Positions 11,170 to 47,219 of a DNA stretch of 64,000 nucleotides are shown in pieces. Where the stretch lies: assembly GCA_030841085.1 (NCBI GenBank), contig JAVEDP010000041.1, positions 186,001-250,000 of the forward strand, written 5' to 3'. This stretch comes from Pyrinomonadaceae bacterium. Its GTDB lineage: Bacteria; Acidobacteriota; Blastocatellia; Pyrinomonadales; Pyrinomonadaceae. The position numbers and the translations under genes were made by a program. Each line of letters opens with the position of its first letter. Position 1 is the first letter of the stretch. The notes beneath the pieces are model-generated. The model ran no database searches and was not told the DNA's origin. It worked only from the letters and a program-made list of their open reading frames with translations.

Positions 11170-11355
11170 AGTAAACAGCAACCAGCGAGTTTCAGTAAAC
11201 AGCAAACAGTTAACAGCAAACAGCCGGAAAAAGCATCTCTTGTTTATGATTGCTGATTCTCATCTCCGCGCGAGCACACAGATTCATAATTCTTGCTGTT
11301 CACGGTTCACTGTTTGCTGTTCGCTGTTTACTGTTTGCTGTTTACTGTTTACTTT
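11170..11355. repeat. inverted heptamer element Hp1
   Basis: Two facing arrays of 7-bp repeats around a spacer of about 65 bases. Left array (about 11170-11227) reads CAGTAAA CAGCAAA; right array (11293-11355) reads TTACTGT TTGCTGT in nine units, the reverse complement of the left type. The right array ends at the stop codon of the phosphoesterase gene and the left array reaches within about ten bases of the rpiB start, so the whole gap between the genes is the element. Confidence 0.85.
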
Positions 11356-12332
11356 TACGCCAGCGATTCATCCCGCAGATCAAGCAGCCGTCCGGCAGAT
11401 GCCACAACTTTTCCGGCCTGCAATTTGAAATCGACGCGGCCGACATAGATACCGCTTCTGCCCACCTGAAAGATGATGGTGTCGTTACCCGATGGTTGTT
11501 TAGTCAGCACCGGTTTTTGCATGAACGTATGCGTATGTCCGCTGGCAATGAAATCGATGCCATCAACCTGCGACGCCACTTGCGTATCGCCAATCTCGCC
11601 GCCCGTAGCATTCGGGTAATAGCCGAGGTGCGACATCCCGATGACGAGCTTGCAACGCTCGCGCTGTCGCAGAGTTTCAACCACGTCCCGAGCTGATTTA
11701 ACCGGATCCATATACTTCACGCCTTTGAAATTTTCCGGCGTGATTAAATTGTCTGGACTGATTCCCATGCCAAACAAACCCACGCGCACGCCGCCCAGGG
11801 TTCGTACGACGTATCGTTTGACCCGCGTCTCGAGCGGCGTGCCGCGCAGGTCATAGTTACTGGAAACAAAATCGAAGTTGGCAAACTTCATGGCTGCCAC
11901 CAAAGCGTCAACGCCATTATCGAAATCGTGATTGCCCAATGTGCCAACGTCATAGCCAATCAGAGACATCGATTTGTATTCGACTTCGCCTTTGTAAAAG
12001 TTGAAATACGGCGTGCCTTGAAACACGTCGCCGGCATCAATCATCAGCGTGTTCGGATTTTCCTTGCGCACGCGTTTGACGAGAGTGGCGCGGCGGGCGA
12101 CTCCGCCTTTTCCGCCATACTGCTTGTCATTGTCCGGCAAGGGATCGATTTGGGAGTGCGTGTCGTTAGTGTGCAGGATCGTGATTAAGGTTTCGCCGGC
12201 CACCGCCTCCAGCAGCGGCGCCGAGATAGCAGACCATGGGGAACTTGAAAACAATTGCGCCCGCGACTGCGGCAGGGCAAGCGCGGCTCCGCCGACGATT
12301 GAGCTTCTTAAAAAGTTGCGCCTGGTAATCAT
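11355..12332 (-). CDS. 5'-nucleotidase-type metallophosphoesterase, Tat-exported catalytic half
   Basis: The 325-residue protein is the N-terminal, catalytic half of the UshA/5'-nucleotidase family. It has a twin-arginine signal ('ITRRNFLRSS' and a hydrophobic stretch), then the dimetal motifs 'ILHTNDTHSQ', 'GDVFQGTPYF', 'GNHDFDNG', 'MSHLGY' and 'SGHTHTF'. Members hydrolyse nucleotides or UDP-sugars outside the cytoplasm. The usual C-terminal substrate-binding half is a separate gene immediately upstream (12329-13204), overlapping by ATGA, so the two are translationally coupled. Each has its own export signal, so this is a split enzyme and not a frameshifted one. The stop codon abuts a heptamer repeat array. 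Confidence 0.9.
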   Translation of the reverse strand: MITRRNFLRSSIVGGAALALPQSRAQLFSSSPWSAISAPLLEAVAGETLITILHTNDTHSQIDPLPDNDKQYGGKGGVARRATLVKRVRKENPNTLMIDAGDVFQGTPYFNFYKGEVEYKSMSLIGYDVGTLGNHDFDNGVDALVAAMKFANFDFVSSNYDLRGTPLETRVKRYVVRTLGGVRVGLFGMGISPDNLITPENFKGVKYMDPVKSARDVVETLRQRERCKLVIGMSHLGYYPNATGGEIGDTQVASQVDGIDFIASGHTHTFMQKPVLTKQPSGNDTIIFQVGRSGIYVGRVDFKLQAGKVVASAGRLLDLRDESLA

Positions 12333-16540: not shown

Positions 16541-17746
16541 TTAGGCCGGGTTTTTTGCCTGCGCTGAACTCTTACGCGAGATTTCTGCCAGGAAGCTTTG
16601 GCCCGCGGTCAGCGTCACTCCAAAGTTGTCTGCAATTGTTTGTCCAATGTCAGCCAGCGAGTCACGCGTTCCGAGATCGACACTGGGCGTCGCGCTCTTG
16701 CCATAGACCAACAGCGGTGCGTACTCGCGCGTGTGGTCCGAGCCGGGAAACGTTGGATCGTTGCCGTGGTCCGCGGTGATGATCATCAGGTCGTCGTCGC
16801 GCATCGCGGCCTCGATTGCTGGCAACGCCGAATCAAAGTGCTCTAAAGCGCGCGCATAACCTTCCGTGTCGCGCCGATGGCCGTAGAGCATGTCGAAATC
16901 CACCAGGTTGGAAAAGATCAAGCCGCGCGTTTTCTGGTTCAACGCATAAATAGTTTGGTCAATCGACTGCTGGTTGTTTTTTGCCGTCAGATCTTCCGTC
17001 ACGCCCATTGAATCGTAGATCGAAGCAATCTTTCCTATGCACACCACGTCGAGGTCTTCGTCCTTCAGCGCCGGCAAAAGATTTTGCCGCGGCGGCGGGA
17101 CTGCATAGTCGTGGCGATTTTCCGTGCGATAGAAAGAACCCGTCTGGCCGAGGAAAGGCCGCGCAATGACTCGACCCACCTTGTGTTCGCCGTCAAGCAG
17201 GCGCCGCGCAATCTCGCAAATCTCATAAAGACGATCGAGCGCAATTACTTCTTCATGCGCTGCTATCTGGAAAACCGAATCGGCGGAAGTGTAAACAATC
17301 GGTTTGCCTGTTTTGACGTGTTCGTCGCCGAGCTGCTTGATGATTTCCGTGCCCGAAGCAGGAATGTTTCCGAGAATGCCCGGAACGCCAGTGTCAGTTA
17401 TGAAACGATCGAGAATCGATTGCGGGAAGCCATTAGGATAAGTCGGAAAAGCTTCCTTTAAAATGATTCCTGCCATTTCCCAATGACCAGTCGTCGTGTC
17501 TTTCCCATTTGAACGGAGCGCGCACTTACCGAACGAACCGTCCGGATGGTCCAGCGGCGGAACGTTAGCGAGACGGCGAACATTGCCCAGGCCGTAGCGC
17601 CGCAAGTTAGGTAAACGAACCTCGCGCGATTCCAAAATGTGGCCGAAAGTATCCGAACCAGCGTCGCCCCACTCTGGTGCGTCGGGCATTGCGCCGATGC
17701 CGGCGCCGTCGAGGACGATTAACGTTATTCTATTGAAATCATTCAT
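16541..17746 (-). CDS. deoB: phosphopentomutase
   Basis: DeoB converts (deoxy)ribose-1-phosphate to the 5-phosphate, feeding DeoC and RpiB. The 401-residue protein has the alkaline-phosphatase-superfamily metal sites: 'VLDGAGIGAMPDAPEWGDAG' at the N-terminus, 'DTTTGHWEMAG' with the phospho-acceptor Thr near residue 85, 'DFDMLYGHRRD' near residue 286, 'IITADHGNDPTFPGSDHTRE' near residue 325. Length is normal. The other steps of deoxynucleoside breakdown in the window are deoC (6848) and the RpiB-like gene (10374), 6-10 kb away and not in the same operon. Confidence 0.96.
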   Translation of the reverse strand: MNDFNRITLIVLDGAGIGAMPDAPEWGDAGSDTFGHILESREVRLPNLRRYGLGNVRRLANVPPLDHPDGSFGKCALRSNGKDTTTGHWEMAGIILKEAFPTYPNGFPQSILDRFITDTGVPGILGNIPASGTEIIKQLGDEHVKTGKPIVYTSADSVFQIAAHEEVIALDRLYEICEIARRLLDGEHKVGRVIARPFLGQTGSFYRTENRHDYAVPPPRQNLLPALKDEDLDVVCIGKIASIYDSMGVTEDLTAKNNQQSIDQTIYALNQKTRGLIFSNLVDFDMLYGHRRDTEGYARALEHFDSALPAIEAAMRDDDLMIITADHGNDPTFPGSDHTREYAPLLVYGKSATPSVDLGTRDSLADIGQTIADNFGVTLTAGQSFLAEISRKSSAQAKNPA

Positions 17747-17780
17747 AGTTTTTCCATGGTTTTTATCTAATAAGATTGGT

Positions 17781-18323
17781 CATTCATCATTTGACAGTTC
17801 TCATTTATTATTTGTTCTGCGTCGAGCGGTGGCAAGAGTGCTTGCAAAAATTCTACACAATTCTTTGTTCTCACCGATAATGTCGATAATCAGACTCTTT
17901 CGAAGCATATTGCTGCGATCGATAATGCGCAACCATATGGAGGTTTCATTTAGTTCTTTCAGTACGATTCTAACCTTGTGAACAAAATCCGCATGGCTTT
18001 CCGCGCCTCTCGCCTCGCCATAGTTAGGAGCAGGCGACGTCCCAGAACGCATTATTTGTCCTGCAACGTGCTTTCCAGCAGGACTCTTCGGCAAGCTTGC
18101 GGCGAGTTTGATAATACGAACGGCAAAATCAACCAGTCGCTCCTCAAGATCGTCCGCAAGTGATTGAACATTCTTTGGAACTTTGCGATCCACGCGATCC
18201 TCCTTCTAGCCTTAAGGGTGATCGAGTAGGCCATGAGCGCCAGCACGGGCTTGGCATTTAGAGCTTTATCGTTAGCGGCGTGTGGAAAAGAAATAATAAA
18301 TGAGAACTGTCAAATGAGAAATG
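17781..18323. mobile_element. inverted-repeat element Hp2 carrying a four-helix-bundle gene
   Basis: A 33-base terminal repeat at 17781-17813 recurs inverted at 18291-18323 with 31 of 33 positions equal. Its units are 7 bp long (CATTCAT CATTTGA CAGTTCT CATTTAT). Everything between is one gene plus its leader. The stop codon TGA of the gene lies in the left repeat. The same terminal repeat (CATTCATCATTTGAC) bounds the non-coding elements at 19648-19952 and 46988-47213. This looks like a small mobile element with autonomous and non-autonomous forms, though no transposase is present and movement is inferred. Confidence 0.7.
17801..18193 (-). CDS. four-helix-bundle protein (23S-IVS / S23, TIGR02436 type)
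   Basis: The 130-residue protein has the family layout: 'LEERLVDFAVRIIKLAASLP' in helix 1, 'KHVAGQIMRSGTSPAPNYGE' leading into helix 2, 'FVHKVRIVLKELNETSIWLR' in helix 3 and a last helix before a basic tail. Relatives are encoded in intervening sequences of 23S rRNA genes and include the Avd protein of diversity-generating retroelements, which binds nucleic acid. Start is GTG at 18193 with AAGGAGG six bases upstream. The last residues 'TNNK' and the stop are encoded by the inverted repeat that bounds the gene. It lies in the gap between deoB and the VWA gene, as expected of inserted DNA. Confidence 0.88.
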   Translation of the reverse strand: MDRKVPKNVQSLADDLEERLVDFAVRIIKLAASLPKSPAGKHVAGQIMRSGTSPAPNYGEARGAESHADFVHKVRIVLKELNETSIWLRIIDRSNMLRKSLIIDIIGENKELCRIFASTLATARRRTNNK

Positions 18324-18352
18324 ATAAATATTCTCTTCTGCCTGTTTAGAAT

Positions 18353-19567
18353 TCAACTCTTCGGAGCAAAGTACCCTTCGCGCGCGCGCACCTGCGCTTT
18401 GTCATTCAGACCACGCAGCTCAACTCGAATCGCGCGAAACTTTCCATCACGGTTCTTATTCGTCGGATAGTAACCCAAACTGTATTGCGTTCCGATTTCC
18501 GTGGCGACGCGGGCAAAGGCAGCGCGCGCGTCCTGAAGACTGTTGGCAATAAAGTTTCTGCCGCCGCTGTCCTTTGCAAGATCGTTCATCTCCTGCCGGG
18601 CCATGTTGTAAAGGTCGCGGCTGATCGTCATTCGTTCAAACGGTCCCATCGCGCAAAAGTCCGCGTAGTCTTCCGCGTTTGCGCGCGGGTAGAAAATCCG
18701 CTGGTAGCGCTGCAGTTGCTTGGCTGAAAGCGACAGACGGCCGTCGTCCGCGCAGTCTTTAAGCAAACGATCCTCGACAAAGTCTTCGGTGTTCACCTGG
18801 ATGAAGTACGAAGCGACCGTTGCTCGCAACAGGGTCGAGCGCACGGATGCGAAATCAGTATCGCTGGTCGAATCAACGCCGTCGGTCAACGCGACAACCG
18901 CACGGCGGCCACGCATTTCTTCAGTTGGCTTGTCGCGAAAGACGTCTGTCACAATTTTTCCTAACGCATCGTAAAACGGGGTGCCGTTGCTCGTTCCCAA
19001 ATTCTCAATCGCCTGGCCCAGTTTCTTGCGGTCGTCGGTGAGCGTGGTGAGCACGTCAACTTTCGCGGCCAGCGACTGCCCGCGTCGCGCGGTGTTAAAG
19101 GCGACGATAGCCACGCGGTCGCCGGGACGCAACGCCGCGACGAAAGCGTTTGCGGCCTGGCGAATCAGCGCCACATCAGAACGTGTTGAACCGGAAGTGT
19201 CGAGCAGCAAGGCAATTTCAAAAGGCACTTCGGTGGTGGCAAACGTCGCGATCTTCTGTGGCTGGCCGTTTTCGTAAACGAGGAAATTCCCTTCGTGCAA
19301 ACCTGCGAGCGGGCGGCCGCCGCTATTTCTTACGACCGCCGGAACGGACACCAGTTGCGTCTCGACGCGCACGACGTCGCCTTCGTCAACTTCCTCGGTT
19401 TGTGATTTCTCGATGGCTTTCGAGGGCCCTGATTCCTCGGCGCCGACGCGTCGGGGTCGTTGTTGTTTCGCCCCGTCCTGCGCATGAGTCGATAAGCCAA
19501 CGTTGGCAATAAGCAAAAAGCCAACGAAGATCAAAGACAGCGCCGCGAATCTCAGGAGTGATCGCAT
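18353..19567 (-). CDS. exported VWFA-related Acidobacterial domain protein
   Basis: A signal peptide ('FAALSLIFVGFLLIANVGLS') precedes a 380-residue protein with a von Willebrand A domain: MIDAS 'LLLDTSGSTRSDV' near residue 143 and 'VVALTDGVDSTSDTDF' near residue 230. The segment before it, 'VVRNSGGRPLAGLHEGNFLV' and 'PQKIATF', and the end 'YSLGYYPTNKNRDGKFRAIR' with 'VRAREGYFAP' are typical of the phylum-specific family TIGR03436. A second member is at 55037. Such proteins are exported and probably bind partners through the metal site; no enzymatic role is known. The gene ends 29 bases from the Hp2 inverted repeat. Confidence 0.92.
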   Translation of the reverse strand: MRSLLRFAALSLIFVGFLLIANVGLSTHAQDGAKQQRPRRVGAEESGPSKAIEKSQTEEVDEGDVVRVETQLVSVPAVVRNSGGRPLAGLHEGNFLVYENGQPQKIATFATTEVPFEIALLLDTSGSTRSDVALIRQAANAFVAALRPGDRVAIVAFNTARRGQSLAAKVDVLTTLTDDRKKLGQAIENLGTSNGTPFYDALGKIVTDVFRDKPTEEMRGRRAVVALTDGVDSTSDTDFASVRSTLLRATVASYFIQVNTEDFVEDRLLKDCADDGRLSLSAKQLQRYQRIFYPRANAEDYADFCAMGPFERMTISRDLYNMARQEMNDLAKDSGGRNFIANSLQDARAAFARVATEIGTQYSLGYYPTNKNRDGKFRAIRVELRGLNDKAQVRAREGYFAPKS

Positions 19568-19647
19568 TGGAGTTTCGTCAGGATTGTCCGGGGAGTTAGG
19601 ACGAACTTTGCGAGAAACTATAACCCAAAACGCGAGGCAGGAAAACC

Positions 19648-19952
19648 CAGAGGTCAGAGGGCAGAGGTCAGAAGTCAGAGGTCGGAGGTCAGAGATTTAC
19701 CATTCATCATTTGACATTTCTCATTTGTCATTGCGGAGGAAGTGTTTGTCTTCAAATGACAGGACTCAAGCCATAAATGACCGGACTCAAGCTATGCGGG
19801 TGCTGATTCAACACCGGAGAAGTCTCGAGAGGACAAGAAAGGCCTTCTCCGAAAATGAGAAATGTCAAATGATGAATGGTAAATCTCCGACCTCCGACCT
19901 CCGACCTCTGACTTCCGATCTCCGACCTCTGACCTCTCATCTCCGACCTCTG
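19648..19952. repeat. inverted heptamer element Hp3 (non-coding)
   Basis: Left flank: seven 7-mers of the CAGAGGT type (19648-19696), then the core. A perfect 35-base inverted pair lies at 19692-19726 and 19853-19887 and contains CATTCATCATTTGAC, shared with Hp2. Right flank: ten 7-mers of the CTCCGAC/CTCTGAC type (19885-19954), the reverse complement of the left type. The 126-base interior has a direct repeat of 21 bases (AAATGACAGGACTCAAGC) and no gene. It fills most of the 480-base gap before the tRNA genes. Confidence 0.85.
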
Positions 19953-20044: not shown

Positions 20045-20119
20045 GGGCACGTATGTCAATGGTAGACGGCTTCCCTTACAAGGAAGAGGTTGGGGGTTCG
20101 AGTCCCTCCGCGCCCACCA
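20045..20119 (+). tRNA. tRNA-Val (anticodon TAC)
   Basis: Cloverleaf by eye: acceptor GGGCACG with CGCGCCC (one A-C mismatch at pair 5), short D arm with GG, anticodon stem CTTCC/GGAAG with loop CTTACAA giving anticodon TAC, T arm GGGGG-TTCGAGT-CCCTC, and an encoded CCA at 20117-20119. The D stem is weak (TGTC/GACG). Confidence 0.9.
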
Positions 20120-20121
20120 AA

Positions 20122-20186
20122 GTAGGACAGGCATTCCTGCCTGTCCGCGTTTAATAAGACTGGACAGACAAGAAAGTCTGTCCTAC
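20122..20186. repeat. family C palindrome, copy 3, between tRNA genes
   Basis: GTAGGACAGGCATTCCTGCC and GGACAGACAAGAAAGTCTGT form an outer stem (GTAGGACAG with CTGTCCTAC) and two inner hairpins (GGACAGGC-ATTCCT-GCCTGTCC and GGACAGAC-AAGAAA-GTCTGTCC). It sits in the spacer of a tRNA pair that is probably one transcript, so it may be transcribed and affect processing. Confidence 0.8.
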
Positions 20187-20201
20187 TTGGTTTCTGTTCT
20201 C

Positions 20202-46987: not shown

Positions 46988-47213
46988 ATTTTTCATTCAT
47001 CATTTGACATCTCTCATTTGTTATTTGATCTGAGCGAGACGAGTTGCTACAAACCACCTGGAGTTCGATCCGAGTTGTTCAATAGGTTGCTGATCAGGTT
47101 GAATATGGCGCGACCGCTCCTGCAAATGACAAATGAGAGATGTCAAACGATGAATGATAAATCGGGCACTTCTTCTGATCTCTGACCTCTGACCTCTGAT
47201 CTCTGACCTCTGC
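46988..47213. repeat. inverted heptamer element Hp5 (non-coding)
   Basis: Inverted pair 46989-47027 and 47123-47161, 36 of 39 positions equal, containing CATTCATCATTTGAC shared with Hp2 and Hp3. Right of it six 7-mers of CTCTGAC/CTCTGAT (about 47172-47213). The interior of about 95 bases has no gene. The element reaches within seven bases of the cobO ATG. Confidence 0.85.
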
Positions 47214-47219
47214 AGCAAA

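Follow-up and report, generated by a model that had tools for sequence, protein, structure and literature searches.

A small gene framed by inverted heptamer arrays in a Pyrinomonadaceae genome, a likely copy of a selfish mobile element coding an S23-type protein

A stretch of 64,000 nucleotides from the genome of a Pyrinomonadaceae bacterium, hereafter the window, carries between deoB and a VWA-domain gene a short gene coding a four-helix-bundle protein and bracketed by inverted arrays of 7-nt units. This locus is one case of a general architecture in which genes of the S23/23S-IVP family lie between heptamer arrays. Arms and gene together are likely a copy of a small, selfish mobile element; its movement is inferred by comparison, no transposition having been observed.

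The element between deoB and the VWA gene

The two inverted arms (positions 17772-17816 and 18288-18332) are 45 nt long and complementary at 39 of 45 positions. Their best 33-nt core (17781-17813 and 18291-18323) has 31 of 33 positions equal, to be compared with a mean of 17.2 (sd 1.2) and a maximum of 22 for the best 33-nt inverted match in about 1,500 pairs of 100-nt stretches taken 480 nt apart from the same window. Both arms have a period of 7 nt. The gene they frame (17801-18193, reverse strand) has a GTG start and codes a protein of 130 amino acids. The left arm, a heptamer array of the CATTTGT family found downstream of the gene, includes the stop codon (17801-17803); the right arm, also a heptamer array, is upstream. 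A preliminary description of the window, made without database searches, had reported inverted 33-base repeats with 31/33 identity, units of 7 bp and a stop codon in the left repeat, all of which held with exact coordinates. The flanking genes deoB (16541-17746) and the VWA-domain gene (18353-19567), both on the reverse strand, were named from their translations.

The leader of the gene (18196-18223, reverse strand) features a match to an ATCACCC motif and a GGAGG ribosome-binding site. The two might pair with each other, a possibility that rests on the sequence alone. ATCACCC precedes 9 of the 17 copies of the gene in this genome; its role as a family-wide 5' leader signal was considered and dropped, the motif having been found in this genome only.

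The window has further heptamer arrays that are not associated with a gene. A gene-less element of the same repeat family (19693-19886, with arms 19693-19735 and 19853-19886) is nested in the loop of a second heptamer hairpin (19642-19952), a gene-less element with GTCAGAG-type arms. The outer element is common to the relative G011, from which the inner one is missing. The terminal repeat had been said to occur twice elsewhere without the gene; this held only in part, the two occurrences being the arms of the single element 19693-19886. A gene-less inverted pair of AACAGCA type is found at 11192-11360 and a solo array of CTCTGAC type at 47169-47216. Separately, an inverted repeat GTAGGACAG...CTGTCCTAC lies at about 20118-20191 between two tRNA genes, where G011 has a heptamer hairpin.

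The four-helix-bundle protein

The protein matches the family profiles TIGR02436 (75.9 bits against a cut-off of 24, E = 2.6e-21) and PF05635 (52.5 bits against a cut-off of 33.8). Its predicted structure is a helical bundle (pLDDT 91) that meets the four-helix-bundle fold of the solved family members. The best fold matches are 2RLD, an S23 family protein from Bacteroides (TM 0.75-0.78, E = 1e-6), and 2GSC (XCC0516), each with five chains in the crystal, followed by Avd (4DWL) and a DGR ribonucleoprotein (8UB7). The model thus predicts a protein folded like S23/IVP proteins and Avd, and the assignment to the S23/TIGR02436 family with kinship to Avd, proposed earlier, held on profile scores and predicted fold. 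Neither profile nor fold matches revealed a recognisable catalytic domain.

The gene is under purifying selection, with dN/dS ratios of 0.095 between orthologous copies of locus L008, 0.055 between L006 and L010, and 0.043 between L110 and L112, a range of 0.04-0.10.

The same architecture in other genomes

The genome of the window (G000, 4.69 Mb) has 17 genes of this family, 15 of which sit between inverted heptamer arrays. The elements are about 460-600 nt long. Their repeat unit differs among nearly all copies (AAACTGT, AGTGGGC, AAACAGC, AAGTTCC, ACAGAAT, AAGTTTC, GAGTTTC and, in two copies, GAGTACT, among others), and the two ends of one copy have a common unit. Heptamer arrays likewise frame the gene in relatives of this bacterium.

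Eighty named loci were analysed from about 20 phyla, including Bacteroidota, Acidobacteriota, Pseudomonadota, Planctomycetota, Chloroflexota and Fibrobacterota, together with Clostridia, Elusimicrobia, candidate phyla, the archaeal Methanophagales and others. An inverted match with a score of at least 30 between upstream and downstream flanks was found at 52 of them (65%), against 1% when flanks of different loci were paired, with median scores of 34.5 and 18, respectively; the other 28 loci were below the threshold. In a pooled set of 132 loci, 98 passed the threshold and their period was 7 in 87 cases, 8 in six and 9 in four. The median length of matched arms is 4.6 heptamers. The architecture was also met by 36 of 44 loci from viral contigs and by most of the plasmid copies read, which are mainly cyanobacterial, with some copies in cas operons and others between nrdB and nrdA. 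The absence of the repeats at other such genes would have refuted the preliminary description; they are present at most of those in this genome, in its relatives and across phyla. Most of these loci lack the exact 33-base sequence; what they have in common is a 7-base architecture with a copy-specific unit.

Linkage between heptamer units and protein

Between different genomes, similarity of the units correlates with similarity of the proteins (Mantel r 0.117, with none of 500 permutations as high). The correlation is seen on the gene-oriented strand and lost for the reverse complement. Set in a common register, the units display a weak motif [G/T][T/C]NAG[T]N (log-likelihood 204, against at most 178 in shuffled controls); AG is present in 82% of the 5' arm units and CT in 16%. 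The unit GACAGAT of Coxiella agrees with the AG core of this motif.

At the deoB-VWA site, arms within one genome are more alike than arms of different genomes (p 0.01 in seven genomes, with arm limits set by eye). Because arms of the same genome match best there, the two arms of a copy seem to change in concert. The covariation leads us to infer that the protein recognises its own heptamers; linked inheritance without binding might also explain the covariation. The earlier proposal that the protein acts on the repeat DNA or RNA is therefore not proven, covariation being its only support.

Gene-less derivatives and abundance of arrays

In 1.6 Mb of G000 there are 271 arrays of period 7, whereas any other period between 4 and 13 gives 0-26 (period 14 was set aside as a harmonic of 7). 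They include 88 inverted pairs, 73 of which have an interior shorter than 150 nt, and gene-less pairs far outnumber those that bear the gene. Many short gene-less pairs have a unit identical to that of a gene-bearing copy in the same genome, while other short-pair units (AATCGTA, GTCAGTT) frame the gene in other genomes. The existence of non-autonomous, gene-less copies, as the preliminary description expected, thus held, and such copies are common in this genome. Ten of the 11 pairs with an interior of 350-600 nt contain the four-helix-bundle gene. The eleventh (G000:C2:76772-77400), whose arms belong to the family of the window element, encloses an ORF of 155 amino acids that starts like a secreted protein and might be cargo.

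Abundance of arrays follows presence of the gene, in comparisons limited to few genomes: six genomes of the class that lack the gene had no period-7 arrays in the 365 kb read, against 4-16 per 100 kb in five genomes with several gene copies. Over 59 genomes the number of genes and the number of GTCAGTN arrays are correlated (Spearman 0.55), and genomes with at least two gene copies differ in these arrays from those with at most one (Fisher p 1.6e-4). These statistics count a single array family in genomes that are not phylogenetically independent. G007 and G016, both 88% complete, are exceptions in having arrays yet no gene detected by either family model; in the opposite exceptions, G027 and G041, the gene is present and the GTCAGTN family absent.

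These data bear on a first rival explanation, according to which the elements owe their movement to an unrelated enzyme, such as a reverse transcriptase or a Y1 transposase of IS200/REP type, with the four-helix-bundle gene as cargo or as a gene that benefits the host. In its favour are the lack of a catalytic domain in the protein, the large excess of gene-less pairs, the pair enclosing another ORF and the persistence of arrays in G007 and G016. Against it, the gene is the near-exclusive long interior, it is tied to heptamer ends across phyla and the units covary with the protein. The only reverse transcriptase found in G000 is one weak RVT_1 match on a contig other than that of the window; Y1 transposases were outside the search. 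We consider this explanation unlikely.

Movement: duplicated copies, occupied and empty sites

L006 and L010, two copies on different contigs of G000, are 84% identical over 534 bp. Their homology is bounded by the arrays, except at the right end, where about 11 bp correspond to the starts of unrelated neighbour genes. Limits at the arrays identify the arms together with the gene as what moves. Both copies stop just short of ATGCAAAA(A/G)CT, at the starts of the unrelated downstream genes, which might be due to chance or to a target preference near start codons.

Occupation of the deoB-VWA site varies among relatives. G005 has gene and arms; in five genomes (G011, G012, G001, G006 and G002) the site is taken by a hairpin without the gene, from the family of the window element, and in G010 by a hairpin of another family. 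In G003, G004 and G024 merely 30-65 bp separate the two genes. The locus is therefore not fixed; equal occupation in all relatives would have counted against mobility. Three further copies of G000 are polymorphic at orthologous sites among 13 relatives; at the L006 site some relatives carry terminator-like hairpins instead.

The gene-bearing element L115 of G045 lies inside a coding gene that is uninterrupted in G049 and G053. About 35 bp of target were replaced at the junction, without duplication. Arms are missing from the empty site and hence arrived together with the gene. The element (G045:C2, about 1427-1888) is in-frame in its host gene, whose reading frame remains open throughout (about 150 codons) and overlaps the four-helix-bundle gene in another frame. 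That repeats and gene move as a unit, as had been proposed, is thus largely supported, by comparison, through L006/L010, the polymorphic sites and L115.

Target duplications, whose search had been advised, were not found at paired elements: none of 54 has flanking direct repeats with a score of at least 10, very short duplications not being excluded. At the loci of G000 itself they are unreadable, identity to its closest relative, G011, being only about 86%. A solo CTCGCCA array (L330, G053:C2:238494) is flanked by a 32-bp direct duplication of a sequence that is single-copy in G049 (L333, C2:394188). From this one pair we infer that some arrays arrive with a long target duplication. Only two clean empty sites were found, unlike each other, with about 35 bp replaced at L115 and 32 bp duplicated at the solo array. 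The duplication at L330 prompted consideration of telomerase-like or target-primed heptamer addition as a general mechanism, which was not adopted because paired elements lack duplications and the genome has one weak reverse transcriptase domain.

Some loci inform on other repeats. No empty site was found in a near-identical Dolichospermum plasmid (98.8%), which has a different repeat element at that spot: its cas6-cas4 gap (L302) holds another inverted-repeat element (GTAGGTTGGGTT...) where Anabaena sp. 90 has the heptamer element. This gap might be an insertion hot spot. Three hairpins of G049 (L321, L322 and L323) had the look of recent jumps (C2:558818, C2:353656 and C1:1667456) and were rejected; each is carried by a larger repeat, 1 kb or more in length, whose three copies are 93-96% identical and which is probably an insertion sequence. 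A repeat of another family, about 250 bp long and unrelated to the heptamer elements, lies at about 359-607 of L008; G011 has more than 12 copies of it.

Two further rivals are confronted with these sites. In the first the gene is an immobile resident of the host flanked by bidirectional terminator-like hairpins. Many hairpins are indeed intergenic, terminator-like hairpins occupy the L006 site in some relatives and the gene is under purifying selection. This reading is contradicted by dispersed duplicates with breakpoints at the arrays (L006/L010), by presence and absence at orthologous sites, by the L115 insertion in a coding gene and by plasmid copies inside cas and nrd operons; it is all but excluded.

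The second holds that heptamer hairpins are older and independent, as slippage repeats or terminators, and that the gene homes into their loops, the arms belonging to the target. It is favoured by the gene-less hairpins at the deoB-VWA site in five relatives, by the heptamer element sitting in the loop of another and by the rRNA hairpins that rRNA intervening sequences occupy (PMC4990558). Four observations oppose it: the empty site of L115 is without arms, L006 and L010 have both arms in common and differ outside them, the unit covaries with the protein, and stretches read from genomes without the gene have no arrays. We regard it as very unlikely.

Proposed mechanism

In the preferred reading, that of a mobile element made of arms and gene, the layout is an array of about four to five 7-nt units, a leader, the S23/IVP gene and the same array inverted, and the whole would be copied and inserted as one package. 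The protein probably forms a pentameric ring, like 2RLD and 2GSC, and would recognise its own heptamers through their AG core. The count of five, for heptamers as for ring subunits, suggests that each subunit takes one heptamer, and the protein may draw the two ends together; both points are inferences. RNA folding predicts that the arms form a long terminal stem in five copies of G000. By analogy with the Coxiella 23S rRNA intervening sequence, this stem could be cut out of the transcript by RNase III, so that insertions in operons, coding genes and rRNA would be tolerated. As the gene has no recognised catalytic domain, strand transfer would probably be carried out by host or trans-acting enzymes. 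Neither the lack of long duplications nor the loss of target sequence at L115 points to a common transposase.

Relation to known systems

The protein of the element has the predicted fold of Avd (4DWL, 8UB7), also a small basic four-helix bundle; the element differs from diversity systems of the Avd/DGR type in that no reverse transcriptase or template/variable repeats lie beside its gene. The single phage match adjoining a reverse transcriptase, L301 of phage Bise, is without heptamer arms. No paper on Avd pentamers was found in the open-access literature searched. Like MITEs and insertion sequences, the elements have terminal inverted repeats, are dispersed and include short gene-less copies that outnumber the gene-bearing ones. 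In contrast to them, their ends are mostly copy-specific heptamers rather than one conserved end, and paired elements have no target duplication of 10 bp or more. Gene-bearing copies contain no transposase, the four-helix-bundle gene being the sole gene inside them (a trans-acting transposase was outside the search).

Heptanucleotide repeats have been described in Xanthomonas (GGGAATC, with 70-75 inverted pairs) and Nostoc (GGGGA(C/T)T), where they were reported as unassociated with mobile elements (PMC4692102), and in Beggiatoaceae (TAACTGA; PMC4679880). They resemble the arrays studied here in being 7-nt tandem repeats, mostly intergenic and, in Xanthomonas, present as many inverted pairs. 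Their units are close to those found at S23 genes, as GGGATTC at L189 of Rhodanobacter. A link of heptamers to S23 genes is not made in the main text of either paper. Nor did the open-access literature searched yield a paper linking S23 genes, heptamer arrays and mobility; subscription papers were not covered, and this is no proof that the link is unpublished.

The intervening sequence in the 23S rRNA of Coxiella burnetii has a 28-bp terminal stem and GACAGAT heptamers ahead of an S23p ORF within 428-444 nt; it is excised by RNase III and was termed selfish (PMC4990558). The window element shares with it an S23 ORF within terminal inverted repeats forming a stem, the heptamers and a similar size, but lies outside rRNA, between deoB and the VWA gene. 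A conserved 23S motif was found in none of the 343 loci examined, which include no 23S-embedded copy; these loci are instead intergenic, in operons, in a coding gene or on plasmids. The elements also differ by their many copies per genome, copy-specific units and many gene-less derivatives.

If correct, the proposal could explain the function of S23/IVP proteins, long annotated as ribosomal or unknown, the origin of rRNA intervening sequences and the richness of bacteria in 7-base repeats. It suggests a widespread and overlooked kind of mobile DNA in about 20 phyla, and leaves the puzzle of ends that differ in nearly every copy yet agree with each other and with the protein. A bolder reading, taken as a whole, is one to which the balance of evidence tips only slightly: the elements would form an as yet unnamed class, spread through bacteria and also archaea, of mobile elements that lack a transposase, in which a pentameric S23-type protein recognises its own AG-core tandem heptamers, and 23S rRNA intervening sequences and many unexplained heptanucleotide repeats would be its insertions and gene-less derivatives.
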